DNA of 53,407 nt from Pseudomonadota bacterium (GTDB taxonomy: Bacteria; Pseudomonadota; Alphaproteobacteria; Rhodospirillales; Rhodospirillaceae), in assembly GCA_020160875.1 (NCBI GenBank), contig JAIUPE010000011.1, positions 1-53,407 on the forward strand. Reading direction: 5' to 3'. The translations under genes were made by a program, and so were the position numbers. How positions within the stretch are numbered: the first letter of the stretch is position 1; every line of letters starts with the position of its first letter. The notes under the pieces are model-generated. The model saw only the letters and a list, made by a program, of their open reading frames with translations. It ran no database searches and was not told where the DNA came from. This document shows, one piece after another, positions 8,021 through 29,908 of the stretch.

Positions 8021-8975
8021 CGTCTTCGACACCAGCGGTCTTCCGCCGCTGGACGATAGCCGTACGCGCCGCTCTCCCCTCACCCTTGCCCAGCATGCCA
8101 CCGTCATCACCACGCGCCTTGTGTTCGGGGCGCTGTGCGGCGTCATTCGTCTCTTCAGGGGCGAACATCCGAAGGGCTGGCGCACGATCCGCTATGGCCT
8201 GCACCGGGAAGAGATCCTCGACCATCATGCGCCGCCCGCCGATAAGCCGCCGCATCGCGCCGTCGTGTTCGTTCACGGCGGCGGCTGGCTCATGGGCACG
8301 AAGGACTTCTACGCCCACGATCTGATCTTCCTGTCCGAGGCCGGATATCCGGTGTTCAACGTCGAGTACCCGAAAGCGCCGGAGCACCCCCATCCGAGAC
8401 CTTTACGTTCGCTGCTGACGGCGCTGGTGTTCATCAAGCGCTCTTTCCCCGAAGCGACGCATGTGCATCTGATGGGCGATTCCGCGGGCGGCAATCTGGC
8501 CGTGATGGCGGCGTTGCTGCTATCCGACGTCAGGCTTCTGAAGCAGGTGGATCCGTGGTGCGATCCGAAGAAACTGCCGAAGGTCCTGTCGGTAACCTCG
8601 ATTTACGGAGTCCTCGATCGCGCCACGATGCTGCGGCCGAACGTACCGGGCGGCGCGGCGCTGCTGGCAGCTTACGCGGGTCAAGACGCCCTCAAGGACG
8701 CGGTGGGACCGGAGCATTCCATCACGCCGATGGACTTGAAATTCGAACGCCATCCGCGCTGTTTCATCGCTTGCGGCGGCGACGATCCGATCCTGCCCTC
8801 AAGCCAGATCTATGCGGAGCGCCTGCAGAAGGAAGGGCATAAGGTGGTGCTGACGACCTATCCGAAGGCGTTCCACGGCTTCTTCAACTTCCCCGAAGGC
8901 GAGCCGAAGCGGAACCTGCGGCGCGACATCCTCACGTTCCTGGACGAGAACTTCCTGGGCGTACAGTCGCGGTGA
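7992..8975 (+). CDS. Alpha/beta hydrolase, esterase/lipase (HSL-like) type
   Basis: The 327-residue protein has the oxyanion-hole motif HGGGW (residues 95-99) and the nucleophile elbow GDSAGG with Ser164. A late CGGDDPILPSS supplies the acid and KAFHGFF the catalytic His, in family order. The HGGGW motif places it with hormone-sensitive-lipase-like carboxylesterases; the substrate is unknown. The ATG at 7992 overlaps the M19 gene by 29 bp, which suggests coupling, though a later start is possible because the first 30 residues are poorly conserved in character. Its stop abuts the stop of the convergent gene with no spacer. Confidence 0.85.
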   Translation: MPSGRENGVNVFDTSGLPPLDDSRTRRSPLTLAQHATVITTRLVFGALCGVIRLFRGEHPKGWRTIRYGLHREEILDHHAPPADKPPHRAVVFVHGGGWLMGTKDFYAHDLIFLSEAGYPVFNVEYPKAPEHPHPRPLRSLLTALVFIKRSFPEATHVHLMGDSAGGNLAVMAALLLSDVRLLKQVDPWCDPKKLPKVLSVTSIYGVLDRATMLRPNVPGGAALLAAYAGQDALKDAVGPEHSITPMDLKFERHPRCFIACGGDDPILPSSQIYAERLQKEGHKVVLTTYPKAFHGFFNFPEGEPKRNLRRDILTFLDENFLGVQSR

Positions 8976-14012: not shown

Positions 14013-14459
14013 ATGATCACCCTGACCATCAACGAGCAAAAGCACGAGGTGGAGGTCGATCCGTCGACGCCGCTGTTGTGGGTATTGCGCGACAAGCTGG
14101 CGATGACCGGCACCAAGTTCGGCTGCGGCATCGCGCAGTGCGGGGCCTGTACCGTGCATATCAACGGCATGGCCGCCAGGGCCTGCGTGACGCCGGTGAG
14201 CATGGTGACCGACGCCAAGATCACGACCATCGAGGGGCTTTCGACCGACGGCAGCCATCCGGTGCAGGCGGCCTGGGTGGCCCATGAAGTGCCGCAGTGC
14301 GGCTATTGCCAGCCCGGCATGATGATGGCCGCCGCCGCGCTTCTGACCCAGAAACCGAACCCGACGGACGCGGACATCGACGCGGCGATCACCAATATCT
14401 GCCGCTGCGGCACGTACCCGCGTGTGCGCGCCGCCATCCATTCCATCGCCAAGACCTGA
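14013..14459 (+). CDS. iorA: Molybdenum hydroxylase small subunit, two [2Fe-2S] clusters (IorA-like)
   Basis: The 148-residue protein is the electron-transfer subunit of a xanthine-oxidase-family enzyme of the isoquinoline 1-oxidoreductase/aldehyde oxidase type. An N-terminal plant-ferredoxin fold carries Cys residues in [14 protein letters not shown] with a later partner in ARACVTP; the C-terminal helical domain holds [13 protein letters not shown] and [20 protein letters not shown] precedes the ATG by a few bases, and a TATACT at 13971-13976 could be a -10 element. The large subunit gene follows after 11 bp. The substrate cannot be deduced. Confidence 0.92.
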
Positions 14460-14470
14460 GGAGAAGCATC

Positions 14471-16621
14471 ATGAACTTCGCCCTCAATCGCCGCCTTTTC
14501 CTGCAAGCCTCCACCGTCGCCGGTGGTGGCTTCATGCTTGGCTTCGCGCTGCCGGGCAATGAAGCGGAAGCCGCCGCGGCACCGGAAGTGAACGCCTGGA
14601 TCGTGATCCAACCGGATGACACCGTCATTGTGCGCGTCGCTCATTCGGAAATGGGTCAGGGCGCCTTCACGGCGCTGCCGATGATGGTCGCGGAAGAACT
14701 CAACGCCGACTGGGCGAAGGTAAAACCGGAGTTCATCAACCCGACCGAACATGTGCAGCGCAACCGTGTCTGGGGCGGCACCGCGACTGTGGGCAGCCGC
14801 GCCGTGCGCACCAGCCATGAATACTTACGCAAGGCGGGCGCCAGCGCGCGCGAGATGCTGATCGCCGCCGCCGCGCAGCAGTGGAAAGTCCCGGCGAGCG
14901 AAGTGCGCGCCGAGAAGAGTGTACTCACGCATACGCCGACGGGCCGCACCTTGAGCTACGGCAAGGTCGCGAGCGCCGCGTCGCGCATGCCGGCGCCGAA
15001 AGACGTCGCGCTGAAGCCGCACACGGAATGGACCATCCTGGGCACGCCGAAGAGCCGCGTGGAGATCCCCGACAAGGTGATGGGAAAACCGGTGTTCGCC
15101 ATCGACGTGCGCCTTCCGGACATGCTGTTCGCGGCCATCGAGCACAGCCCCGCGTTTGGCGGCAAGCTGAAGAGCTTCGATGAAAAAGCGGTCGCCAAAA
15201 TGCCGGGCGTGCGTGCCGTGGTGGCTCTCGCCGATAGCGCCGTCGCGGTCGTGGCTGACAGCTATTTTGAGGCCTCACGCGCTTAGACAGTGCTGCCGAT
15301 CGAGTGGGACCGCGGGCCCAACGGCCATGTGAACCATGCGGATGTGCTGGCTTTCGTGAAAAGCGGGCTGACGGCGACCGATCCGCTGGAAGGCGCGAGC
15401 GAAGGCGACGTTGTCGCCGCCATCGCCAAGGGCGCGAAGGTGATCGAGGCGGAATATCACGCTCCATTCCTGTCCCACGCCCCGATGGAGCCGCAGAACG
15501 CCACGGCGCGCGTGAGCGCCGACCTCGTTGAAATCTGGGCGCCAACACAGAATATCGAAGCGACGCTGAATCTGGCGGCCAAAGCCGCTGGCGTGGACAT
15601 CGGCAAGGTGAAGGTGCATCCGGTGATGGCGGGCGGCGGTTTCGGCCGGCGCGGCGGGCAACTCGAGTATGTGCCACAGGCGGTGGAACTCTCCATGCGC
15701 ATGGGCAAACCGGTGCAGGTGATCTGGTCGCGCGAGGAAGATATCCGCCACGACTACTACCGCCCGATTTCCTCGGCGAAGTTCAAGGCCGCGTTCGACG
15801 CGCAGAACAATCCCATCGCCTGGGATACACGCATCGCCGGCCAGTCGATCATGTCCACCGTGAACCCCGAGGCTCTCAAGAAGGGCACCGATTTGGGCTT
15901 TCTGGTGTGCTTCACAGACAATCCGTACGATGTGCCGAACCGCCGCGTGGATTTCGGCATGCGCAACACCCATGTGCCGGTGGGCTATTGGCGCTCAGTG
16001 AACCATTCGCAGAACGGCTATTTCCGCGAATGTTTCGTGGACGAAATGGCCGAAGCCGCCGGCATGGACCCGTATCAGTTCCGCCGCAAGCTCCTGGCCA
16101 ACTCCCCGAAGCAGCTCGCCTGTATGGACGCCGCCGCCAAGGCGGCCGGTTGGGGCCGTTCACTGCCGCAAGGTGTCTTCCAAGGCATTGCACAAGTCGA
16201 TGGCTACGGCAGCTACGTGGCGTCCGTCGTCGAAGCCTCCGTGCGTCCTGATGGCCATCCGAAGGTGCATCGTGTCGTCGCGGCTATCGATTGCGGCCAT
16301 GTGGTGAACCCGGATACGGTGAAGGCGCAAACCGAAGGCGCGGTGGCCTGGGCGCTGTCGGCAGCGCTCTACGGCGAGATCACCATCAAGAACGGCGGCG
16401 TGGAGCAAGGCAACTACCACGACTATCCGATGGTGAAGATGGCCGAGATGCCGGTGGTGGAAGTGGTGCTGGTGCCATCCTACGACTTCTGGGGCGGCGT
16501 CGGCGAGCCGGGCGCGCCGCCGGTCACCCCGGCCCTGCTCAACGCCATGTACAAGGCGACGGGCCGGCGCATCCGGAACCTACCGATTGTAAAAGACAGC
16601 CAACCACGCTCGGCTGACTAG
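14471..16621 (+). pseudogene. iorB: Molybdenum hydroxylase large subunit (IorB-like), interrupted by an in-frame TAG
   Basis: The frame codes for a molybdopterin-cytosine-dinucleotide subunit of about 716 residues, normal for the family. It starts with a Tat signal (NRRLFLQAS, residues 6-14), followed by the GQGAFTALPMMVAEEL and VWGGTATVGSRAVR segments. A TAG at 15284-15286 ends translation after 271 residues, just where relatives read an unbroken ALxxLPIEWDEGPN; the same frame resumes at once with LPIEWDRGPN and continues intact to GGGFGRRGGQ and GVGEPGAPPVTPALLNA. A GTG at 15290 could reinitiate, but a separate second half would lack the Tat signal. One base change accounts for the stop and no other decay is seen, so it is a recent nonsense mutation, a sequencing error, or read-through. 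Confidence 0.8.
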
Positions 16622-16653: not shown

Positions 16654-17088
16654 CTAAAACGGCTTCAAGACGACCATGATCACGATGATGATCATGGCGA
16701 CGGCCGGAAGTTCGTTGACCATGCGGTAGAACTTCGCCGTACGGGTGTTGGCGTCGCGCGCAAAGTCCTTCGTCCAGCGCTCCATGAGTCCGTGCATGAA
16801 AACGAGGACGACGACGAAGGCGAGCTTCACATGGATCCAGCCCTGGTGCCAATCCACCGGGCTTTCCGGCAAAACCAACATCAGGATGCCGAATCCCATC
16901 GCGGCAGCTGCGGCCGGGCGCATGATGATGCGCAGGAGACGGCCTTCCATGCCCTTCAGCATCTCAGACGCTTCGGAGCCAGGCGCGAGGCCGACGTGGT
17001 TCACAAACAGGCGCGGCAGATAAAGCAATCCCGCCATCCATGCGATGACAGCGATAATGTGCAGCGCCTTGATCCAGAAAAAGAGCAT
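16654..17088 (-). CDS. hemJ: Protoporphyrinogen IX oxidase HemJ
   Basis: The 144-residue membrane protein has four predicted helices: about 3-23, 55-75, 85-103 and 125-143. It matches the HemJ/UPF0093 family, which oxidises protoporphyrinogen IX to protoporphyrin IX in many alphaproteobacteria and cyanobacteria. The conserved His10 in ALHIIAVIAWMAGLLYLPRL, the following RLFVNH, and the WIHVKLAFV helix are all present. It is the last gene of the haem cluster, 181 bp after hemF, and that gap contains an inverted repeat. Convergent with the iorB-like gene. Confidence 0.92.
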   Translation of the reverse strand: MLFFWIKALHIIAVIAWMAGLLYLPRLFVNHVGLAPGSEASEMLKGMEGRLLRIIMRPAAAAAMGFGILMLVLPESPVDWHQGWIHVKLAFVVVLVFMHGLMERWTKDFARDANTRTAKFYRMVNELPAVAMIIIVIMVVLKPF

Positions 17089-17107
17089 GAGGCCCCCTTG
17101 CTTCTAA

Positions 17108-17185
17108 GCCCCTCGCCTTTATGGGGAGGAGGTTGGAGGTGGGGGGATGACCCGCACCGTCGCCGCTTGTAGCCTTACCCCCACC
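17108..17185. repeat. GC-rich intergenic inverted repeat between hemF and hemJ
   Basis: GGTGGGGG (17138-17145) and CCCCCACC (17178-17185) are 8-bp inverted arms about 32 nt apart, preceded by a smaller CCCC...GGGG hairpin near 17110-17126. Runs of this GGGGAGG...GGTGGGG kind are familiar as dispersed intergenic repeats in alphaproteobacterial genomes. Only one copy is in this window, so its repetitive nature is an inference. It splits hemJ from the rest of the haem operon and could attenuate or process the transcript. Confidence 0.4.
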
Positions 17186-17269
17186 CGCGTTTGCTGTCGC
17201 GTGTTTTTCGAGACCGGACAGCGCCCGAAGCGTACGGCGCCGTCCCACACGAGAGGGGGCGTTGGTCTG

Positions 17270-18109
17270 CTATGGCCACTTTGCCGTGGGCGGCATGCTC
17301 ATGAGATAGGCGTCGGGGTTCGCGTCGGTGGCGAAGCCGAATTTTGTGCCGCGGTCGTAAACGAGGTTGAACTCCACGTAGCGGCCGCGTTTGATGAGCT
17401 GCTTTTCCTTGTCGGCGTCCGTGAAGGCCGTGTCTTTCCGCCGGGCGACAATCTTCGGGATCACAGCGAGGAACGCTTCGCCGACGTCGCGTTGAAAAGC
17501 AAAATCCTTCTTGATGTCGCCGCTGTTGAGATCGTCGAAGAAGATGCCGCCGACACCGCGCGGTTCCTTCCGATGCGGTAGATAGAAGTACTTGTCGCAC
17601 CATTCCTTATATTCGGCGTAAGCGCCCGGACGATAACGGTCACACGCCTCCCTCATCGCCGCGTGGAAGTCCTTGGTGTCTTCGTCGAAAGGAATGGTGG
17701 GGGTGAGGTCGGCGCCGCCGCCCAGCCACAGTTTGCTGGTGTGCATGAAACGGAGATTCATATGCACGGTCGGCACGAAAGGGTTGAGCATGTGAGTGAC
17801 GAGCGAAATGCCGCTGGCGGTGAACTGGCCGTCGGACTCTTTCGCCCCCGGCATCTGGGCCATGCCCTGTTCGGACAACTTACCCCAAACGTGGCTGACA
17901 TTGACGCCCGCCTTCTCGAACACTTTCCCGCGCAGCACACGCATGCGCCCGCCGCCTTTGAGACGGTGGTCGGGGCCGCGTTCCCATTCGGTCTGCTCGA
18001 ACTTCACCCCGTCTTCGAAGCTTTCGAAGCTGGCACAGATGCGGTCTTGCAAGTTCTTAAAGAACGCAACGGCGTCGGCAATGAATTCGTCGGAGACTTG
18101 AGAGGTCAT
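17270..18109 (-). CDS. hemF: Oxygen-dependent coproporphyrinogen III oxidase
   Basis: The 279-residue soluble enzyme decarboxylates two propionates of coproporphyrinogen III to give protoporphyrinogen IX, using O2. Family features include GGGRMRVLRGKVFEKAGVNV, HMNLRFM, LWLGGGADLTP with its conserved acidic and His neighbours, CDKYFYLPHRKEPRGVGGIFFDDL, and RGRYVEFNLVYDRGTKFG. Length is normal. Its ATG overlaps the hemE stop by 4 bp (ATGA), so it is translationally coupled. The oxygen-dependent isoform implies aerobic haem synthesis. Confidence 0.97.
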   Translation of the reverse strand: MTSQVSDEFIADAVAFFKNLQDRICASFESFEDGVKFEQTEWERGPDHRLKGGGRMRVLRGKVFEKAGVNVSHVWGKLSEQGMAQMPGAKESDGQFTASGISLVTHMLNPFVPTVHMNLRFMHTSKLWLGGGADLTPTIPFDEDTKDFHAAMREACDRYRPGAYAEYKEWCDKYFYLPHRKEPRGVGGIFFDDLNSGDIKKDFAFQRDVGEAFLAVIPKIVARRKDTAFTDADKEKQLIKRGRYVEFNLVYDRGTKFGFATDANPDAYLMSMPPTAKWP

Positions 18110-19140
18110 TTTGCGGTCCGTTCATGCACATAATCGACGAGGCGCTTCACGGCATCGGGGTCGACTTCCGGCCAGATGCCATGGCCGAGATTGAAGATAT
18201 GGCCGGGCGCGGGGCCCGCGTCGGCGAGGATCTCGTCGATGCGCTTTTCAAGCGCCGCTTTCGGCGCGAACAGCACGGCGGGATCGAGGTTGCCCTGGAT
18301 CGCCTTGCCCGGAAGCAATTTGCGCGCGCCGGCGAGCGGCACACGCCAATCGAGGCCCACCACATGCACGGGAAGCTCGGAGATGATGTCGAGCATCGTG
18401 CCGCAGTTGTTGGCGAAGTAGATGAGCGGAACGTCGAGGTCCTTGAGTCCCTCGAAGATGCGCTTCACCGGCGGGAGAGCGACGTTGCGGAAGTCGTGTG
18501 GGCCAAGGAGGCCGCCCCAGGATTCAAACAACATCAGCGCCTGCGCGCCCGCGGCGGCCTGAGCACGCAGGTAAACGATCATCGCGTCGGCGAGACGCTC
18601 AAGGAGACGCGCCGTCACCTCGGGCTGCGCATGAACGAAAGAGCGCGGCACGGAGAATTCCTTCGAGGGCTTGCCGGCAACGAGATAGGCAAAGAGCGTG
18701 AACGGCGAGCCGGCGAAACCGATGAGCGGCACATGAGCCGGAAGACCGGCGCGGGTGAGCTTGATCGCTTCCATGACGAACGGCACATCGCGCTCCGGGA
18801 CCAGCGGGCGAATCGCTTCGACCTGCTTCAGGGTGCGGATCGGATCGGCGATCACGGGTCCCGGCGCGTAGTCGAGATCGATCCCCATGCCTTCGAGCGG
18901 CACCATGATGTCGGAGAAGATGATGGAGGCGTCGAAGGCGAAGCGGCGGATCGGCTGTAGGGTGACTTCGGCGGCGAGTTCAGGCGTACGCGTGAGTTCG
19001 GCGAAACCGACCTTGGCCCGCACTTCGCGGTACTCGGGAAGATAGCGCCCGGCCTGGCGCATGACCCAGATCGGCGTGTGCGACGTCGGTTGACGGCGGC
19101 AGGCAGCGAGGAACGGAGGCAGCGCGGTCGAATCGGTCAC
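18106..19140 (-). CDS. hemE: Uroporphyrinogen III decarboxylase
   Basis: The 344-residue enzyme converts uroporphyrinogen III to coproporphyrinogen III by removing four acetate carboxyls. The N-terminal signature WVMRQAGRYLPEYREVR is present, as are FSDIMVPLEGMGIDLDYAPGPV with the catalytic Asp, GFAGSPFTLFAYLV, LFESWGGLL and FNLGHGIWPEVDPD. Length is typical. It follows hemC by 35 bp and overlaps hemF by 4 bp. Confidence 0.97.
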   Translation of the reverse strand: MTDSTALPPFLAACRRQPTSHTPIWVMRQAGRYLPEYREVRAKVGFAELTRTPELAAEVTLQPIRRFAFDASIIFSDIMVPLEGMGIDLDYAPGPVIADPIRTLKQVEAIRPLVPERDVPFVMEAIKLTRAGLPAHVPLIGFAGSPFTLFAYLVAGKPSKEFSVPRSFVHAQPEVTARLLERLADAMIVYLRAQAAAGAQALMLFESWGGLLGPHDFRNVALPPVKRIFEGLKDLDVPLIYFANNCGTMLDIISELPVHVVGLDWRVPLAGARKLLPGKAIQGNLDPAVLFAPKAALEKRIDEILADAGPAPGHIFNLGHGIWPEVDPDAVKRLVDYVHERTAK

Positions 19141-19175
19141 GGGACTTCTCTTTGCTGGTGAATTTCTAACATGTG

Positions 19176-20126
19176 TCAGGCTTGGCCCGGATTGATCGCA
19201 GTCAGCCGGCGGGCATTGGCCTGCGCAAGCACGGCGTCGCCGCCCTTCGAAATAAACGCGGATGCAGCGGCGTTACCCAATGCGGCGGCATTGGAAACAT
19301 GGCCCGTTTGCGTGACGGAGACGAAATCGCGCCCATCGAGATTGCAGGCCGCGGCGTAGAGGGAAACGTCGTTGCCATTGACGGTCGCCAGCGCCCCGAG
19401 CGGCACCTGGCAACCGCCTTCAAGACGTCCGAGCATGGCGCGCTCGGCGTCGACGGCCACACGGGTCGGCGCGTGATCCAGCGGGTGAAGCCAGCGCAGG
19501 GTTTCGCCATCGCCCGCGCGTGCGCAAATGGCGATGGCGCCCTGGGCGGCGGCATTGGGAAATATATCCGTCGGCAGGAGTTGCGTGATCCGTTCAGCCA
19601 AACCCAAGCGCTTCAAACCCGCCGCCGCAAGGATGATGGCGTCGTATTCGCCGTCATCAAGCTTGCGCAGACGCGTGGGCACGTTGCCGCGTAGTTCCAC
19701 CTGCTTCAGGTCGGGCCGCGCCTTGGCGAGGAAGGCCTTGCGGCGCAGGCTCGACGTGCCGATGCGCGCGCCGGAAGGAAGATTCGCGAAATCGAGACCA
19801 CCGCGCGAGACCAGTGCGTCGTGCGGATCCTCGCGCTCCAGCACCGCCGCCAGCGTGGTGCCGGCGGTCATGGCGGTGGCGAGATCCTTCAAACTATGAA
19901 CGAGGAGGTCGACTTCATTGTCGAGCAAGGCCCGGTCGAGCTCGGCGGTGAAGAAACCTTTGCCGTCCGTGGACCAAAGCGGGATATCGGTCTGCAGATC
20001 GCCGCGCGTCTTGATGACGACGAGTTCAACCGCCGGCGCGCCGGGGATGAGGCCGATCAGACGTTTCACTTCTTCCGACTGCCAAAGCGCCAAGGCGGAA
20101 CCGCGAGTACCAATACGCAAAGTCAC
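19176..20126 (-). CDS. hemC: Porphobilinogen deaminase (hydroxymethylbilane synthase)
   Basis: The 316-residue enzyme polymerises four porphobilinogens to hydroxymethylbilane. It shows the RIGTRGSALALWQ start, VHSLKDLATA with the catalytic Asp81, RIGTSSLRRKAFL and VELRGNVPTRLRKL. Cys239 in LEGGCQVPLG is the thioether attachment site of the dipyrromethane cofactor. Its ATG overlaps the stop of the response-regulator gene by 4 bp. hemB, which makes its substrate, and hemD, which uses its product, are not in this window. Confidence 0.97.
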   Translation of the reverse strand: MTLRIGTRGSALALWQSEEVKRLIGLIPGAPAVELVVIKTRGDLQTDIPLWSTDGKGFFTAELDRALLDNEVDLLVHSLKDLATAMTAGTTLAAVLEREDPHDALVSRGGLDFANLPSGARIGTSSLRRKAFLAKARPDLKQVELRGNVPTRLRKLDDGEYDAIILAAAGLKRLGLAERITQLLPTDIFPNAAAQGAIAICARAGDGETLRWLHPLDHAPTRVAVDAERAMLGRLEGGCQVPLGALATVNGNDVSLYAAACNLDGRDFVSVTQTGHVSNAAALGNAAASAFISKGGDAVLAQANARRLTAINPGQA

Positions 20127-20851
20127 GACACTTCTCCTTCAGGGAGGAAACGGTAGCCGACGCCGCGCACCGTCAGGAAATGTTTAGGCTCGTGCGGCGT
20201 GCGCTCGAAAATCTTGCGCAGGCGCAGGATGAAGTTGTCGACGGTGCGGGTCGAGGGAAACACTTCGTAACCCCAGACTTTCTCCAAGAGGTCGTCGCGC
20301 GTGACGACCGCGTCCGGCTGTTCGGACAGGACCTTCATGATCATCGCTTCTTTTTCCGTGAGATCATGGAAGGAGCCGTCCCAGGATTTAGCGCGGAAGG
20401 TGCGGAAGTTCACTTCGTTGCCGGCGAAGCGCAGCACGCCGTCGGAGGCCGGTTTGGCCATGGACTGTTTGTACCAGTCCCAGCGGCGCAGGATCGCCTT
20501 TACGCGCAGGAGGAATTCGTCGAGATGGAAGGGTTTGGTGAGATAATCGTCGCCGCCGGCTTCAAGCCCGCGTACACGGTCCTGCGGGTCGCCGCGCGCC
20601 GTGAGAAATAAAACCGGTGTGTTCTTGCCCTGGGCACGCAACTCGCGGCACAGCGCGAAGCCGTCCATCTTGGGCATCATCACGTCCAGGATCAGAAGAT
20701 CGTAGTCGCTGGCCAAAGCCTGCGCGAGACCGGCGCCGCCATCATGAGCGGTATCGGCGGCATATCCCTCGGCGCGCATGTTCTCGGCCATGCCCTCGGC
20801 AAGATGCAGGTCGTCCTCGACGACCAGGATACGGTGCATGACCTCGTTCAT
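20123..20851 (-). CDS. OmpR-type response regulator inside the haem operon
   Basis: The 242-residue protein has an N-terminal receiver with acidic pair VVEDD (residues 11-14), phosphoacceptor Asp56 in LILDVMMPKMDG and switch Lys in YLTKPF. A C-terminal winged helix includes LTEKEAMIMKVL and RTVDNFILRLRKIFE, then VRGVGYRFLP. I place the start at 20851 because that ATG forms a 4-bp ATGA overlap with the upstream kinase stop; an in-frame ATG at 20881 would overlap it more, and one at 20839 is also possible. Its own stop overlaps the hemC start. It most likely controls genes for tetrapyrrole synthesis, but targets cannot be read here. Confidence 0.93.
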   Translation of the reverse strand: MNEVMHRILVVEDDLHLAEGMAENMRAEGYAADTAHDGGAGLAQALASDYDLLILDVMMPKMDGFALCRELRAQGKNTPVLFLTARGDPQDRVRGLEAGGDDYLTKPFHLDEFLLRVKAILRRWDWYKQSMAKPASDGVLRFAGNEVNFRTFRAKSWDGSFHDLTEKEAMIMKVLSEQPDAVVTRDDLLEKVWGYEVFPSTRTVDNFILRLRKIFERTPHEPKHFLTVRGVGYRFLPEGEVS

Positions 20852-21951
20852 GGGGCGTCCAGGGTGACGGCGGCGGGCCATGTCACGGTGAAGGTTGCTC
20901 CTTTGCCGGGGCCGTCACTGTGCGCTTTTGCCTCGCCGTTCTCGAAATGCATGAAGCGCCGCACTATGTGGAGACCAAGACCCGTGCCGGCGGCATCGCG
21001 TCCTCCGGAGGTATCAAGACGCACGAATTTCTCAAAAAGGCGTTCCGCGTCGCCGGGCTCGAAACCAATCCCGCTATCTTTTACCGCGATCTCAAGAGCG
21101 CCGCCGTGGCGACGGCCGGAAATGGCGATGGCGCCGCCTTTCATGGGCGCGACGGCCGCGATGGCGTTGTCGATGAGGTTACGCAGGACGCCATCGGTCG
21201 CGACGGGATCGGCATAGAGATCCAGATCGGCCGGAATATCGACGCTGAAACTGACGTTCTCGCGCTTGGCGATATCCTCGACATTGGCGAGAACATGACG
21301 CACCGCTTCGGCCACACTGATGCGCTCGCGGTTGAGCTGCACCCGGCCGCGATCCAGGCGCGCGCTGTCGAGGATCTTGGCGACCATGTTCTCCATCCGC
21401 CTCAGATCATCAAGCATCCGGTGCGAAAGCTGCTGGAAGCGTTCGGGCGACAGCTGGCGGCGGAGCATCGTCTCAAGGGAAAGTTGAAGACTGGCCAATG
21501 GCGTCTTGAACTGATGCGACACCATCGCCAGGAAATTGTCCTGCTTGCGGCGCACTTCGGCTTCGCCCGACAAGCCGCGCCAAAGCACCGCGATGCCGGC
21601 GGCGAGCACCAGAAGGAAGAAGCCGCTTTCCCAGGTATATTGGTTGACGCGCGCGCGCTGAGCGTCGTCCAGCGCGCGCGCGGCCTCGGGTTTCAAGCCG
21701 ACCGTCTCACCCGACACTTGCAGATGCGGAAAGATGGCCGTGATCTCGGCGCCGTTCACGCCGGCGGCTTCCAAGCGCAAGCCCGCGGCGACGTCGTATG
21801 TATAGAGCGTACGGATCTGATGTGTGTGTTCAGCTGCGACCATGCGCTGATCGATCAACCACCACAGGACCTGCGCTACCGCGAACACCTGCAAACCGAT
21901 CATGACGATGTGCAGGAAGCGGATGGGGTCGGAGCGGAGTGTCATGGCCAT
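20848..21951 (-). CDS. Membrane sensor histidine kinase inside the haem operon
   Basis: The 367-residue kinase has two membrane helices (about 12-33 and 109-126) framing a periplasmic sensor loop of about 75 residues with no recognisable domain and no cysteine. A short linker leads to HisKA with phospho-His146 in MVSHQFKTPLASL, then HATPase_c with N-box NLIDNAIAA, DSGIGF and GTGLGLHIV. ATG at 21951 or 21945 may start it. It lies 45 bp after hemL and overlaps the regulator gene by 4 bp. The partner gene and position imply that it senses something tied to haem or iron status; that is inference. Confidence 0.93.
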   Translation of the reverse strand: MAMTLRSDPIRFLHIVMIGLQVFAVAQVLWWLIDQRMVAAEHTHQIRTLYTYDVAAGLRLEAAGVNGAEITAIFPHLQVSGETVGLKPEAARALDDAQRARVNQYTWESGFFLLVLAAGIAVLWRGLSGEAEVRRKQDNFLAMVSHQFKTPLASLQLSLETMLRRQLSPERFQQLSHRMLDDLRRMENMVAKILDSARLDRGRVQLNRERISVAEAVRHVLANVEDIAKRENVSFSVDIPADLDLYADPVATDGVLRNLIDNAIAAVAPMKGGAIAISGRRHGGALEIAVKDSGIGFEPGDAERLFEKFVRLDTSGGRDAAGTGLGLHIVRRFMHFENGEAKAHSDGPGKGATFTVTWPAAVTLDAP

Positions 21952-21996
21952 GGCGGATGGTCCGTTGTTGCTTATCGCGGCGGCGCCGCTTCTTAA

Positions 21997-23286
21997 TTAG
22001 CGCGGCAACGCCGCAACCGTCTCGGCAAGGCCCGCGACGAGGGTGCCGATGTCCGCCTCGGTATGGGCGGCGGACAGGAACCCGACCTCGTAGGCCGACG
22101 GTGCAATGTAGATACCTTTGTCGAGAAGCGCTTGAAAGAGCGGCGCAAAACGGGCGCCGGCGCCCGCATCAATGGCTTCGGCCGACCGAGGCGGCTCGCC
22201 GGGCTGGAACGACAGCCAAAAGATGGAACCGAGACGCGCGAAACCGACCTCGCGGCCGGTGGCCTTCAACGCCGCGGTGGCCTTGGCTTCAAGAACGGCC
22301 CCCATGTCATCGAGCTTGGCGATGACGTTGTCGCGCTCGAGGATACGCAAGGTCGCGAGGCCGGCCGCCATCGCCACGGGATTCCCGGAAAGCGTGCCGG
22401 CCTGATAGACCGGCCCCTCCGGGGCGATATGGGACATGAGATGGCGCGAACCGCCGTAAGCGCCGACCGGCAATCCGCCACCGATCACCTTGCCGAACGT
22501 CACGAGGTCCGGGGTGATGCCGTAATGCGCCGCGGCGCTGCCCTTGGGGACGCGAAAGCCGGAGATGACTTCGTCGAAAATAAGCAGCGCGCCGTGTTCC
22601 TTGGTCAGCGCGCGGAGCTTTTGGAGGAAAGCCGGGCGCTGCAGCAAGAGGCCGTTGTTGGCGGGCACCGGTTCAATGATGACGGCGGCGATCTTTTTAC
22701 CTTCGGCGGCAAACAACGCGTCGAGCTTGGCGTCGTCGTCGAGCGGCAACACGCGCGTGAGCGCGGCGAAATCCTTGGGCACACCTGCGGACGATGGCTG
22801 ACCGGCGGTGACCAGGCCCGAACCGGCGGCGACGAGAAGATGATCGGCATGGCCGTGATAGCAGCCGGAGAATTTCACCACGAGATCGCGGCCCGTCGCA
22901 CCACGCGCGAGCCGGATGGCGCTCATGGTCGCTTCGGTGCCTGACGAGACGAAGCGTACCTGCTCGAGGCCCGGATAAGCGGCGACGACTTTCTCGGCGA
23001 GATCGACCTCACCGCGACACGGCGCGCCATAGGTGGTGCCGAGCGAAGCGGCTTTCTGAACGGCGCTTACCACTTCCTGCGGCGCGTGACCGAGGATGAG
23101 CGGTCCCCAAGACCCGACAAAATCGAGATAGCGTTTGCCTTCCTCGTCAGTGACGTAGGCGCCCTCGGCCTTGGCGATAAAACGCGGCGTGCCGCCGACG
23201 GACTTGAACGCGCGGACCGGCGAGTTGACGCCGCCCGGGATGAACCGGCGGGCGCGTTCGTAGAGAGCGGCATTGGTCTCGGTCAC
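21997..23286 (-). CDS. hemL: Glutamate-1-semialdehyde 2,1-aminomutase
   Basis: The 429-residue PLP enzyme makes 5-aminolevulinate from glutamate-1-semialdehyde, the second step of the C5 route. It has the FIPGGVNSPVRAF start, RFVSSGTEATMSAIRLAR, YHGHADHLLV, LIFDEVISGFRV and the PLP Lys266 in VTFGKVIGGGLPVGAYGG, all diagnostic of HemL rather than other class III aminotransferases. The start overlaps the hemA stop by 4 bp, so both C5 enzymes are made together. Confidence 0.97.
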   Translation of the reverse strand: MTETNAALYERARRFIPGGVNSPVRAFKSVGGTPRFIAKAEGAYVTDEEGKRYLDFVGSWGPLILGHAPQEVVSAVQKAASLGTTYGAPCRGEVDLAEKVVAAYPGLEQVRFVSSGTEATMSAIRLARGATGRDLVVKFSGCYHGHADHLLVAAGSGLVTAGQPSSAGVPKDFAALTRVLPLDDDAKLDALFAAEGKKIAAVIIEPVPANNGLLLQRPAFLQKLRALTKEHGALLIFDEVISGFRVPKGSAAAHYGITPDLVTFGKVIGGGLPVGAYGGSRHLMSHIAPEGPVYQAGTLSGNPVAMAAGLATLRILERDNVIAKLDDMGAVLEAKATAALKATGREVGFARLGSIFWLSFQPGEPPRSAEAIDAGAGARFAPLFQALLDKGIYIAPSAYEVGFLSAAHTEADIGTLVAGLAETVAALPR

Positions 23287-24575
23287 TGACTCTTCTCCTT
23301 ATTGAGCGGATGGCGCGCGGTTTCGCCGTGAAGGGCGTCCTGCACGCCGCGCAAGTAAGCCTGCACGGCGGCGGGACCGGATTCGGTCGCGAGCGCGCGC
23401 AGCCCCTTGAGCGGCGCGTGCGCGAGGCGGCGCGCGAAACCTTCGGCCCACTGCTTGAGGCCTTCTTCGCTGGTTTGCGACTTGGGCAGACGGCGCAGGC
23501 TTTCGACGGCCGCGCGCTGATACTGCATGGTGAGATCCTGGATGAGCGAGGAGGCTTCGCGGATGGCGTATTCGCCGCGCAGGCGTTCCAGATGCTCGTC
23601 GATCACGATGCGCGCGGAGGCGAGCTCGCGCAACCGCTCGGTACGACCCAGGGCGGCGTCGGCGATCACCGCGTCCATACCAAGACGTGTGAGGCCGGTC
23701 ATGAGACCCGCCGCGGGATCGACGTTCGGCGGCACACCCAGATCAACGATGAGAGTTCCACGCGTGGGCGCGGCGGCGGCGATGCGCGCCGCGACCGTGA
23801 GATCGATGAGCGGCTCGGCGCCGCCGACGGCGCTGATGATGACATCGATGGGGCCGGGATTGGCAAGAAACTGATCCAATGGACAAGCTTCACCGTTCAA
23901 TTCGATCGCCAGTTCCTCGGCGGTTTCGTAGGTGCGGTTGACGACGGTAATCGGCAAACCCCGCGCCGCGAGCATACGGCCGGCGTGGCGCGTCATCGGT
24001 GAAATGCCGACCAGCGCCACACGACCGCGCGCGCCGTCCACATGCGCGAGCGCACGTTTCACCGCATAATCGGCAAGCGATTCGACGTTCGCGGTGCCGG
24101 CGATTTCCTTGTGCACATCCTGCGCGGCGCGTAACGCTTCGGCAAAGAGATAGTCGAGCTGCGGCCCGCATGTGCCCGCCGCCTTGGCCGCGCTCCAGGA
24201 CTGGCGGACCTGATTGTAGATCTCGCGTTCGCCGGCCTGGGCTGAATCGAGACCGGAGGCGACGAGGAACAGGTGCTCGGCCGCCCCCTCGCCCACCCAG
24301 GCGCGGAACACATGACGGACGTCGTCGCCGGCCAGCACGTCGGAAAAGACATCGCCCAGGGCGTCGCGGCAGTCCTGCGCGGTCAAGGACTCGTCGCCGG
24401 CGACGATGAACTCGATTCTGTTACAAGTGCCGATGTAAGCAAGTTCAGGCACGCCAAGACGCGCGGCAAGTTCCCGCAGGCGGTCCTCGATCTCGGTCTT
24501 CGGCCAGGCGAGGCGCCCGATCCGGTCGACCCCTGCCGATTTATAAGAAGCGCCGATGAGCGCAAACTGGTCCAT
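23283..24575 (-). CDS. hemA: Glutamyl-tRNA reductase (C5 pathway)
   Basis: The 430-residue enzyme reduces glutamyl-tRNA to glutamate-1-semialdehyde with NADPH. The catalytic Cys51 sits in YIGTCNRIEF, followed by VASGLDSAQAGEREIYNQVR, a slightly divergent form of the GLDSxxxGExQI segment. An NADPH-binding Rossmann domain includes VALVGISPMTRHAGRML and VVNRTYETAEELA, then DLGVPPNVDP and a helical C-terminal dimerisation region. It is not 5-aminolevulinate synthase, which shares the symbol hemA in most alphaproteobacteria. First gene of the cluster. No Shine-Dalgarno site precedes the ATG; a GC hairpin lies there instead. Confidence 0.95.
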   Translation of the reverse strand: MDQFALIGASYKSAGVDRIGRLAWPKTEIEDRLRELAARLGVPELAYIGTCNRIEFIVAGDESLTAQDCRDALGDVFSDVLAGDDVRHVFRAWVGEGAAEHLFLVASGLDSAQAGEREIYNQVRQSWSAAKAAGTCGPQLDYLFAEALRAAQDVHKEIAGTANVESLADYAVKRALAHVDGARGRVALVGISPMTRHAGRMLAARGLPITVVNRTYETAEELAIELNGEACPLDQFLANPGPIDVIISAVGGAEPLIDLTVAARIAAAAPTRGTLIVDLGVPPNVDPAAGLMTGLTRLGMDAVIADAALGRTERLRELASARIVIDEHLERLRGEYAIREASSLIQDLTMQYQRAAVESLRRLPKSQTSEEGLKQWAEGFARRLAHAPLKGLRALATESGPAAVQAYLRGVQDALHGETARHPLNKEKSQ

Positions 24576-24578
24576 AGC

Positions 24579-24599
24579 CGGGGGGATAGCATGCCCCCG
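24579..24599 (-). promoter_or_regulatory. hemA: GC hairpin directly upstream of the hemA start
   Basis: CGGGGG (24579-24584) and CCCCCG (24594-24599) form a 6-bp, all-GC stem with a 9-nt loop, ending 4 nt before the hemA ATG on the minus strand. It occupies the place where a ribosome-binding site would be, and no AG-rich site is seen. It could restrict translation of the first C5 enzyme. Confidence 0.35.
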
Positions 24600-24685
24600 A
24601 AGCCTCTATGTCATGGCTGTGTCACGGCGTCTTAATTGATTGATATAACAGATATAATGAACCTCTCATGTTTGGGGAAACCGCC

Positions 24686-27950: not shown

Positions 27951-28322
27951 TCAGTGGCCGATCACCCGGCGCAACCCCTGCTCGAACTCCGCCACCGTCA
28001 AAGGCTTTTGCAGGACCTCATGCGCGGCCCAGCGGCCGTGCACGCCATCGCGACCGTAGCCGGTGATAAAGACGAATGGAATCCCGCTCGTTTCCAATTT
28101 CTCAGCGATCGGAAACGCGGTCTCGCCGCCGATGTTCACGTCCAGAATGGCCAGCGCGGGAAGCTTGGCCGCAACGAGCGCAAGGCCGGCGTCGAGGCGC
28201 GCCGCGTGACGCACGCTGGCCGCGCCGAGTTGCTCCAGCATCTCCTCGATCAGGAAGGAGACCATGGTTTCATCCTCGATCAGCAGGATATCCAAACCTG
28301 CTAGGAGATTGGAGCGTGGCAT
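27951..28322 (-). CDS. Stand-alone receiver-domain response regulator
   Basis: The 123-residue protein is a single CheY-like receiver: acidic pair in LLIEDETMV, phosphoacceptor Asp61 in LAILDVNIGGETAF, Thr in FVFITGYG and Lys in VLQKPLT. The DVNIGGE motif is typical of receivers paired with HWE-family kinases. It has no output domain. The start at 28320-28322 (MPRSNLLAG) lies 14 bp after the kinase stop; a longer frame from 28361 would overlap the kinase. It probably passes phosphate on to a phosphotransfer protein or works by protein contact. Confidence 0.9.
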   Translation of the reverse strand: MPRSNLLAGLDILLIEDETMVSFLIEEMLEQLGAASVRHAARLDAGLALVAAKLPALAILDVNIGGETAFPIAEKLETSGIPFVFITGYGRDGVHGRWAAHEVLQKPLTVAEFEQGLRRVIGH

Positions 28323-28336
28323 CTCGCGAGCCTTCC

Positions 28337-29908
28337 CTAAAGAGCGATCTCTATAACACACCGGAACCCCTCCGGCGGGAAAGATGGCATATAATCGCCG
28401 CGAAGCTCATCGACCACGGCGCGCTCTATAAATCTTGTCCCATAACCGGTCTGCGCCGGCGGCTGCACGGCAGGCCCGCCGGTTTCCTCCCAGGTCAGAC
28501 GCAGACGCTCCGCCCCAAGACGCAGCCAGACAAGACTTACCACACCATTCGGGGCGGAAAGCGCGCCGTACTTCACCGCGTTGGTGGCAAGTTCGTTCAA
28601 GATCATCGCCAGGGCAATCGCGACATGAGGCCGGAGCGCGACACTGGGGCCATCAATGATGGCGCGCGCCGCGCGTTGCCCCGTGTAAGGCGCGATGATC
28701 GATCGCACGACCTCTTCGAGATACGCGCCCTCCCAATGCTTGCTGCTGAGCACATTGTGAACGCTGGATAAGGCCTGGAGGCGCGCTTCGATGGCCTGAT
28801 GCACCTCCGGCGCTGCGCCTGAGTTGCGTAATCCGCGCCAGACGATCGCTTGAACGGAGGCGAGCGTATTCTTGACACGGTGATTGAGCTCGTTGATGAG
28901 CAGCTCGCGATGGCGCTCGGCGCCCACAAGTTGACGCGCGATGCGAACCGCGAAATAGCCGCCGAAAAGAATCAGCACGGCCCCGATACTGAAAGTCGTG
29001 GCGAACGAACGAAGTGTCGGCGCCTGATACTGGCCGATGGGCACGCCCACGGCGACCACCCATCCTGTTTCGACCGAAAGGGTAAAGGCGGTAAGCACGC
29101 GCGTTCCTTCAACGGAGGTTGTTTCCGTCAACCGCTCACCGCCCGCTTCCAATTGAGCGCGCAAAGAGTCCGAGGCCGACGTGATGGCCCTGTCGGAAAG
29201 CACCGGCCGCCGCGCGACGTGGTGCGCCACCCGGTCGAAAACCGAGAGGACCCAGCCCTCGCGCAAGTCGGGACGCCGCAGGATGTCGGTGAAACTCGCA
29301 CGCGGGGGATTGAAAGCGAGCGCGTACAAGACTTTGCCTTCGTGCATCACCGGGACAACGACTGTGAATGTCACCTCGCCGGCGCGCCGGCTGAGATAGA
29401 CGTTGGAGACCTGAGGCCCCTGCCCCGCGAAAACCGCGGCAACGGCTTCCAGGACTTCGGGGCGTGCAAGCGTGGGCGATGCGCTTTCGAATGTATTGAA
29501 CAGCTGCACGCCGTTCGGATCGGCGACCGAAATCCCCGTGCCTTCCGGAAAGCGCGTGAGGAAGCGCTCGGCATCGGCGCCGAAGTTCGACAGATCCTCG
29601 GCCCGGAGACTCGGCGACAGCGCTAACACCTCAAGAGCGGCGATCTGGTTGCGCAATTCGCGGTCGACCGCGATCATGGTACTGCGCGTGAGTTGCAGCA
29701 CTTGCTCGGCAGCCGCATCCTTCGCCCGCTCGTAACTCTGGAAAACGACCACCCCGCTCAGCACCAGCATCGGCACCAACGTGCCGGCAATGAGAACAAG
29801 CAGCCTGATCTGCAAGGGGAGGGGCTTGGGCGAAAACAACGCCTCAGACGGCGCCAACGCGCCGTCCCGCGGCTTATTTTCCGACACCGTATCCCGATAG
29901 GTATCCAC
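28337..29908 (-). CDS. HWE-family sensor histidine kinase with extracytoplasmic sensor
   Basis: The 523-residue kinase has a first helix (about 33-56), a periplasmic region (57-302) that resembles a double-Cache sensor (GISVADPNGVQLFNTF and VVVPVMHEGKVLYALAF), and a second helix (303-323). The HWE kinase core has phospho-His343 in ELNHRVKNTLASVQAI, the ALAMILNELATNAVKYGAL N-box and the WEE motif in RLTWEETGGP. Such kinases are common in alphaproteobacteria. It sits directly upstream of a receiver gene and downstream of a hybrid kinase, all on the minus strand. Ligand unknown. Confidence 0.92.
   Translation of the reverse strand: MDTYRDTVSENKPRDGALAPSEALFSPKPLPLQIRLLVLIAGTLVPMLVLSGVVVFQSYERAKDAAAEQVLQLTRSTMIAVDRELRNQIAALEVLALSPSLRAEDLSNFGADAERFLTRFPEGTGISVADPNGVQLFNTFESASPTLARPEVLEAVAAVFAGQGPQVSNVYLSRRAGEVTFTVVVPVMHEGKVLYALAFNPPRASFTDILRRPDLREGWVLSVFDRVAHHVARRPVLSDRAITSASDSLRAQLEAGGERLTETTSVEGTRVLTAFTLSVETGWVVAVGVPIGQYQAPTLRSFATTFSIGAVLILFGGYFAVRIARQLVGAERHRELLINELNHRVKNTLASVQAIVWRGLRNSGAAPEVHQAIEARLQALSSVHNVLSSKHWEGAYLEEVVRSIIAPYTGQRAARAIIDGPSVALRPHVAIALAMILNELATNAVKYGALSAPNGVVSLVWLRLGAERLRLTWEETGGPAVQPPAQTGYGTRFIERAVVDELRGDYMPSFPPEGFRCVIEIAL

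Follow-up and report, generated by a model that had tools for sequence, protein, structure and literature searches.

Why is a two-component system encoded inside a haem-synthesis operon of an alphaproteobacterium, and what does it control there? In the window, by which we mean the whole analysed stretch of 53,407 nucleotides, a single (minus) strand carries the gene order hemA-hemL-HK-RR-hemC-hemE-hemF-hemJ, with HK a sensor kinase and RR an OmpR-type regulator. The pair lies between hemL and hemC exactly as the original prediction placed it (Table 1). The neighbours hemJ, hemF, hemE, hemC and hemL were all identified by scores above NCBIfam cut-offs. The hemA product reaches 188.5 bits against TIGR01035, under the cut-off of 209.55, and its Pfam match is that of a glutamyl-tRNA reductase. 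The description of the operon as complete was wrong, because hemB, hemD and hemH are absent from the hemA-to-hemJ run of the window.

Table 1. Features of the haem locus, in positions of the window
Feature	Positions	Strand	Basis
hemJ, protoporphyrinogen oxidase	16654..17088	-	TIGR00701, above cut-off
hemF, oxygen-dependent coproporphyrinogen oxidase	17270..18109	-	NF003727, above cut-off
hemE, uroporphyrinogen decarboxylase	18106..19140	-	TIGR01464, above cut-off
hemC, hydroxymethylbilane synthase	19176..20126	-	TIGR00212, above cut-off
RR, OmpR/PhoB-type response regulator (HemR-like), phospho-acceptor Asp56	20123..20851	-	domains, alignment, tree
HK, sensor histidine kinase (HemK-like), phospho-acceptor His146, phosphatase residue Thr150	20848..21951	-	domains, alignment, tree
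Sensor part of the kinase	21556..21951	-	alignments and AlphaFold models
hemL, glutamate-1-semialdehyde aminomutase	21997..23286	-	TIGR00713, above cut-off
hemA, glutamyl-tRNA reductase (C5 pathway), divergent	23283..24575	-	PF05201, 6.4e-31
-10-like element ATGCTATC, ~10 bases before the hemA ATG	24585..24592	-	TGNTA invariant in 21 rows
hem-box TGACACAGCCATGACA (TGACA-N6-TGACA), 33 bases upstream of the hemA ATG	24609..24624	-	predicted regulator site

Four junctions had been described as ATGA overlaps. All four overlap by 4 bases, but the shared letters are ATGA only at HK/RR and hemE/hemF, and GTGA at hemA/hemL and RR/hemC. Between hemL and HK there is no overlap but a gap of 45 bases; hemC and hemE are 35 bases apart, and hemF and hemJ 181. 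Across the whole window, Rfam at gathering scores and a tRNA scan returned no matches. Scans for promoter and terminator consensus returned about as many matches as in shuffles.

The arrangement is present in relatives. We fetched 24 carrier genomes; all but one belong to three genera of a single family, and the remaining one comes from a different alphaproteobacterial order. In 20 of them (the window and 19 further genomes), hemA-hemL-HK-RR-hemC-hemE is unbroken. Of the other four, contig ends split the run in two, one stops short of HK, and one has lost hemA-hemL. Among the 20 genomes measured for the RR/hemC junction, 16 show the 4-base overlap; the other four have spacings from -1 to +8 with the start codons chosen. 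A chance insertion of the pair beside the operon, already rejected in the original prediction, is ruled out by this contiguous order in related genomes.

Beyond these carriers, the arrangement is rare, and the survey of the order of genome G150 gave one in five. A profile of the segment from the second transmembrane helix (TM2) to the DHp domain matched 8 of 398 genomes of a phylum sample at 1e-12. The genome of the window matched in full; the seven others begin no earlier than profile position 21 and lack the E..FF part. Meanwhile, we checked the standalone GluTR loci of all 30 GluTR-bearing relatives outside g1, G020 and G026 (4.4 to 16.5 kb each). A weak hemA match was found in 26 loci and none in 4; tblastn at 1e-6 detected no hemL, HK, RR or hemC, and the exact hem-box was absent from all 30.

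The ALA synthase route is the one ascribed to alphaproteobacteria (PMC11480375). A C5 route is uncommon in this class, and ALA synthase exceeds its cut-off in only two of the 24 carriers. Genome G471 has an ALA synthase and no longer carries hemA-hemL in the locus, yet it keeps HK-RR-hemC-hemE and the hem-box, which offers a natural experiment on the purpose of the pair.

TGACA-N6-TGACA precedes hemA in all 23 genomes with a visible hemA upstream region (19 of 19 in the genus), at 32-33 bases from the ATG in 20 of 22 upstreams. Simple shuffles of 22 hemA upstreams gave a mean of 0.0025 carrying a box, and the 3.76 Mb genome holds two exact matches, one of them at hemA. Aligning the upstreams over 100 anchored columns revealed that the invariant blocks are the two box halves and the -10-like TGNTA. 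The -10-like element lies so near the ATG that the hemA transcript is probably leaderless, as judged from the letters of the promoter.

The closest known counterpart of this locus is HemKR of Leptospira (Hklep/Rrlep; LB014-LB015), likewise a HisKA kinase encoded next to an OmpR-type regulator within a C5 haem cluster (PMC2266917, PMC11426443). The hem-cluster place of HemKR is termed novel in the first, and the L. biflexa HemR hem-box is given as TGACA[N6]TGACA in the second. In the L. interrogans record, we found the pair directly after hemL and the same box before hemA, in the reading direction of hemA (L191:8496, with hemA at 8549); this hemA is annotated as hypothetical, and its GlutR_N match is over the cut-off. 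The predicted place of the Leptospira pair within a hem cluster fits L. interrogans; in L. biflexa, by contrast, the pair lies away from the cluster, and the loci are reported to differ between pathogens and saprophytes. Downstream, hemC-hemE-hemF-hemJ follows here and hemE-hemN in Leptospira. None of the papers listed by our literature searches reports HemKR outside Leptospira.

The domains of the two pairs are the same. Our kinase (367 residues, HisKA and HATPase_c) shares with Leptospira HemK the threonine at H+4, the WW that closes the first transmembrane helix (TM1), E..FF and W in TM2, and the absence of HAMP, the helix here continuing from TM2 into DHp. In an alignment of 13 of these kinases with Leptospira HemK, these transmembrane residues do not vary. 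The kinase tree, built with 13 other kinases and one Leptospira sequence on a long branch, groups our kinase with HemK at 99/98, and at 89/89 on the cytoplasmic part alone, without the sensor.

The trees bear out kinship with HemK for the kinase, whereas the regulator tree is not decisive. Leptospira HemR, represented by one sequence whose branch is very long, joins the regulators of this group (242 residues in the window, Response_reg and Trans_reg_C) with a support of only 88/89, and AU tests reject neither a placement of HemR with E. coli PhoB (p 0.297) nor one with Monoglobus (p 0.322). HemR is 34-36% identical to these regulators, which is not above several unrelated OmpR-type regulators; the recognition helices read FPSTRTVDNFILRLR here and FPTNRTIDNSIVRLR in HemR. 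These regulator results are compatible with convergence, in which the hem operon of an alphaproteobacterial ancestor took up an unrelated pair of the OmpR/PhoB family and the shared box merely reflects the half-site common to PhoB-like regulators. Exact boxes beside a phosphate-selective porin gene and a PhoU-like gene also fit such an origin, as does the likeness of the box to a reversed Pho-box. Convergence would, however, have to produce the same place after hemL, the same box orientation at hemA, the 99/98 grouping, the common transmembrane residues and the absence of HAMP in both groups, and we consider it improbable. The conserved position, the hem-box at hemA, the place after hemL and the kinase tree all support the predicted HemKR-like haem regulator. 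We conclude that the pair is likely an alphaproteobacterial HemKR, of common origin with Leptospira HemK/HemR, which controls the C5 haem operon from within.

On the other hand, the Pho-box half-site and spacing match the hem-box when read backwards. The hem-box is a Pho-box repeat in reverse complement, so this motif is not exclusive to HemR. The box could be a PhoB site through which phosphate starvation controls hemA, with the local pair acting elsewhere. The box at the PhoU-like gene (L104) shares the orientation seen at hemA, although our home-made gene call puts it 195 bases from that gene. The box before the porin gene (L116) has the orientation opposite to that at hemA, and G471 retains the box alongside HK-RR despite the loss of hemA-hemL; we give control of hemA by PhoB very little credence. 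The local regulator resembles PhoB of PhoBR/PnpRS in its winged helix, but scores 164.3 of 296.2 bits on NCBIfam PhoB, a result that speaks about the local regulator only; the kinase scores 147.1 of 400 bits on PnpS, and both are far under the cut-offs. In addition, the operon is without phosphate genes. Among NCBIfam kinase and regulator families, the top 25 out of 75 and out of 94 all fall well short of their cut-offs.

Exact boxes in the 19 genomes of the genus number 55, 19 before hemA and 36 elsewhere, while the backwards pattern occurs 14 times; the surplus of 36 against 14 is accounted for only in part. Of the 55 match loci, we inspected 30 with home-made gene calls: 11 are hemA, and 6 of the 19 others lie inside genes. 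A Pfam scan of ten proteins beside 8 of the 13 remaining loci found no haem or iron gene, and exact boxes among the inspected loci reveal no wider haem/iron regulon. In the genome of the window, only one exact box was found before a haem gene; HemR of L. biflexa, in contrast, has hmuO, exbB1/exbD1 and a receptor gene under its control as well. One box with identical letters in G000 and G012 recurs as a variant in G004, followed by TTGTCAG or TTTGTCAG; in G012 and G004 it precedes another response-regulator gene, and it looks like the own site of that other regulator. The genome of the window has one further exact box besides that at hemA, and its letters are those of this G012 box.

Among other systems, RegBA/PrrBA and FnrL regulate tetrapyrrole genes in alphaproteobacteria. 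RegA, which is not known to be encoded in hem operons, binds DNA through a Fis-type domain, whereas the regulator here has a Trans_reg_C winged helix. HrrSA, ChrSA and HssRS are likewise two-component systems tied to haem; they are Gram-positive sensors responding to external haem, and HrrA and ChrA are NarL-type regulators.

The sensor had been described as short, periplasmic and without a known domain, and this description holds. Approximately 72 residues between the two predicted transmembrane helices form a cap, modeled by AlphaFold as a helix, a short helix and a beta-hairpin (mean pLDDT of the sensor part 87.6). The Pfam scan of the kinase found no recognised sensor domain and no match in the cap, and Foldseek with the sensor against the PDB found no fold match at E <= 0.001. 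Leptospira HemK is without this cap, with roughly 35 residues between the helices in L. interrogans (305 residues in total). TM1 carries W30, W31 and D34, and TM2 carries E108, F111, F112 and W124.

We propose that His146 of the kinase phosphorylates Asp56 of the regulator, which would then bind the tandem box, with the downstream half replacing a -35 element. Once bound, the regulator would activate transcription from the hemA promoter and hence production of the operon, the pair included, in a positive loop. In 19 of the 24 genomes, hemH diverges from the hemA box region and may be co-controlled from it. The membrane core of the kinase (W30 W31, E108 F111 F112, W124) may read a haem precursor or product, a signal that would switch the kinase to a phosphatase via Thr150 and close a negative loop. 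In this manner, the pair is probably turned off by such a compound. For L. biflexa, PMC11426443 reports that ALA shuts down HemKR via the Thr of HemK, and that HemR phosphorylation is changed by ALA and not by iron excess or a chelator.

The L. biflexa phosphorylation result speaks against a HemKR-type membrane sensor of redox, oxygen or iron with haem supply as its output, a reading that overlaps ours and differs only in the non-porphyrin signal. Aromatic and acidic residues conserved at the membrane face would suit such a sensor, as would the oxygen-dependent hemF in the operon and a cap without a strictly conserved His ligand (three of 19, namely G003, G007 and G014, have Tyr or Gln in place of His76); we regard this signal as rather unlikely. 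A C5 operon with its own HemKR and the same hem-box in a rare alphaproteobacterial group would provide a second, distant comparison for what HemK senses. The candidates for sensing are the parts common to both groups, a few transmembrane residues; Leptospira manages without the cap. The hem-box, meanwhile, makes the promoter open to direct test.

More tentatively, hemL-HK-RR and the box might constitute a haem-control cassette of spirochaetes and a few alphaproteobacteria, which moved between phyla with the C5 operon, replacing or escaping the ALA synthase route. The signal would be read in the membrane by the WW / E-FF core, and the cap would be a later alphaproteobacterial addition.

On the minus strand of the window, hemA, hemL, the HemK-like histidine kinase (HK), the OmpR-type regulator (RR), hemC, hemE, hemF and hemJ form a run, and the coordinates in the original prediction prove correct. 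It had placed ATGA overlaps at four junctions. All four overlap by 4 bases, but only HK/RR and hemE/hemF read ATGA, whereas hemA/hemL and RR/hemC read GTGA. The term 'complete' operon does not hold, as hemB, hemD and hemH are missing from the run. HK consists of HisKA and HATPase domains without HAMP, and two predicted membrane helices enclose approximately 72 residues. RR contains a receiver and a winged-helix domain. Elsewhere in the window we notice by eye a receiver-type ORF adjoining a membrane kinase-like ORF, unrelated to the haem locus. There are also molybdenum-type oxidoreductase genes, in which a 2Fe-2S subunit (Fer2_2) is followed by two ORFs that look by eye like a large subunit.

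Coordinates of the features discussed (window positions unless a locus or genome is named)
Feature	Position	Strand
HK (367 aa)	20848-21951	-
RR	20123-20851	-
TGACA-N6-TGACA box before hemA	24609..24624	-
Receiver-type and kinase-like ORFs	27951-29908	
Molybdenum-type oxidoreductase genes	14013-16621	
Box, G470	L187:2792 (hemA match from 2841)	
hemL/HK frame overlap, G002	L050:7624	
hemC-hemE open frame, G011	L051:9901-11916	
ALA synthase, G471	L188:5888-7075	
Second hemC, G471	L188:7104-7961	
Box-like sites	L121:1501; L128:1501; G000:C8:32781-32796	
Tandem repeat, G015	L110:1501, 1692, 1878	

The loci of 24 genomes were fetched, picked by kinase search except G004, which was picked by a glutamyl-tRNA reductase (GluTR) search. 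These carriers comprise 19 genomes of genus g1, four of the same family (G026 of g9; G020, G470 and G471 of g3), and G150 from another order of the class; loci L002 and L003 are taken as G012 and G005, as their boxes have the same letters. The arrangement is kept, with hemA-hemL-HK-RR-hemC-hemE uninterrupted in 20 of the 24, hemE being cut by the contig end in two. The run is divided by contig ends in G010 and G013, the contig of G004 stops inside hemL, and G471 has HK-RR-hemC-hemE with hemA-hemL missing at the locus. Next in order are hemF-hemJ in 18 carriers; the contigs of G004, G006, G014 and G026 stop before them, G150 has them downstream on the opposite strand, and they were not found within the fetched stretch of G471. 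The 4-base RR/hemC overlap occurs in 16 of 20 genomes measured. We also notice a 94-base overlap of the hemL and HK frames in G002, the largest in the set, and a single open frame of hemC and hemE with no stop between in G011, either a natural fusion or a sequencing error.

Outside the 24 carriers the sensor is rare. Within the family, 22 of 73 genomes have it (3 of 23 genera); it also occurs in one of five genomes of G150's order, in 2 of 385 of a class sample (the window's genome and G150), and in 1 of 398 of a phylum sample, the window's own.

The main invariant block of the aligned hemA upstreams is TGACA-N6-TGACA, the predicted RR site, present in all 23 genomes with a visible hemA upstream (22 aligned, plus G470). 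Simple shuffling of the 22 upstreams over 2,000 rounds gave a mean of 0.0025 with the box. The distance from box end to start codon is 32 or 33 bases in 20 of the 22, the outliers being G020 (38 bases, TTG start) and G150 (59). A downstream TGNTA is invariant in 21 rows, all but G150. In the window it ends approximately 11 bases before the hemA ATG, so a leaderless hemA transcript is likely from this spacing. The ferrochelatase gene hemH is divergent from the box region in 19 of 24 carriers; it is not in G000, G012, G005 and G004, and G150 has a hemH downstream.

The window's 3.76 Mb genome holds two exact box matches, one being the hemA site. Elsewhere in the genus we found 36 exact matches, against 14 when the pattern is reversed; the surplus is accounted for in part only. 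The Pho-box repeat is TGTCA-N6-TGTCA, which is the other strand of the box; two exact matches adjoin phosphate-type genes, one oriented as at hemA. No second haem or iron target appeared among the exact-box loci inspected. In L121, L128 and G000 a box-like TGACA-N6-TGACA is followed by TTGTCAG; in L121 and L128 it precedes another OmpR-type regulator gene, and in L121 it is divergent from an HlyD-type gene. It is probably that other regulator's own site. In G015, TGACATCGGTGTGACA occurs three times, about 190 bases apart, as a tandem repeat.

The same motif, TGACA[N6]TGACA, is described as the hem-box of L. biflexa, where phosphorylated HemR is reported to activate hemA and ALA to shut HemKR down via HemK phosphatase (PMC11426443). 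In L. interrogans, the HemKR pair was placed between hemL and hemE in a 2008 paper (PMC2266917). The record used for this locus is 350 kb long and bears the label plasmid, but we took it as chromosome II; the order there is hemA-hemCD-hemB-hemL-HK-RR-hemE-hemN, with HK right after hemL as in the window, and the one exact box in 25 kb precedes hemA. Between that hemA, annotated as hypothetical, and the one in the window, blastp showed no match at 1e-3; the Leptospira hemA passes the GlutR_N cut-off (32.4 of 27 bits) and scores weakly against the hemA model (34.3 of 209.55 bits).

In the kinase tree that had been proposed, HemK joins eight carrier kinases against 13 others (support 99/98); when the sensor regions are cut away and two kinases are left out, the join has 89/89. 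The regulator tree does not settle the matter: HemR joins at 88/89 on a branch of length 4.35, and AU tests leave two alternatives unrejected. RR-HemR identity is 34-36%, not above that to several unrelated regulators. In the hemL tree, a branch supported at 100/99 separates seven carrier loci and Leptospira, itself on a long branch, from seven others. Among titles and abstract openings of the open-licence PMC literature, no comparable haem-operon two-component system appeared outside Leptospira, and no paper linking HemKR with Alphaproteobacteria was found in that literature.

In the AlphaFold model, where the mean pLDDT is 87.6 for the sensor alone, a long helix spans TM1; a short helix and a beta-hairpin come next, and the last helix passes through TM2 straight into DHp. 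No PDB fold matched the sensor at E <= 0.001. Residues W30, W31, E108, F111, F112 and W124 (window HK numbering) are invariant in 13 carrier kinases and HemK. Because Leptospira HemK is without the periplasmic cap yet keeps the membrane residues of the window HK, we infer that the common signal may be sited in the membrane core. At the position of His76 in the FPH motif, G003 and G007 carry Tyr and G014 carries Gln, which speaks against an obligatory His-haem ligand at this position.

Alphaproteobacteria are assigned the ALA synthase route in one account (PMC11480375). By the NCBIfam cut-off test, the carriers, most of them incomplete drafts, are mostly C5-only, because ALA synthase exceeds the cut-off in 2 of 24 (G018 and G471) vs 35 of the other 40 relatives. 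GluTR is present in all 19 genus genomes, of which only G018 has ALA synthase above the cut-off, and the 3.8 kb contig that bears it may be foreign; none exceeds the cut-off in G020, G026, G470 or G150. G471 retains the pair and box at the locus lacking hemA-hemL, and on another contig, where there is no exact box, ALA synthase stands directly before a second hemC, a divergent copy (40% to that of the window). The two look like an acquired pair replacing hemA-hemL. Outside the carrying genera, 30 genomes (L129-L158) have a gene resembling glutamyl-tRNA reductase but lack hemL within the stretch fetched, and ALA synthase exceeds the cut-off in 28 of them.
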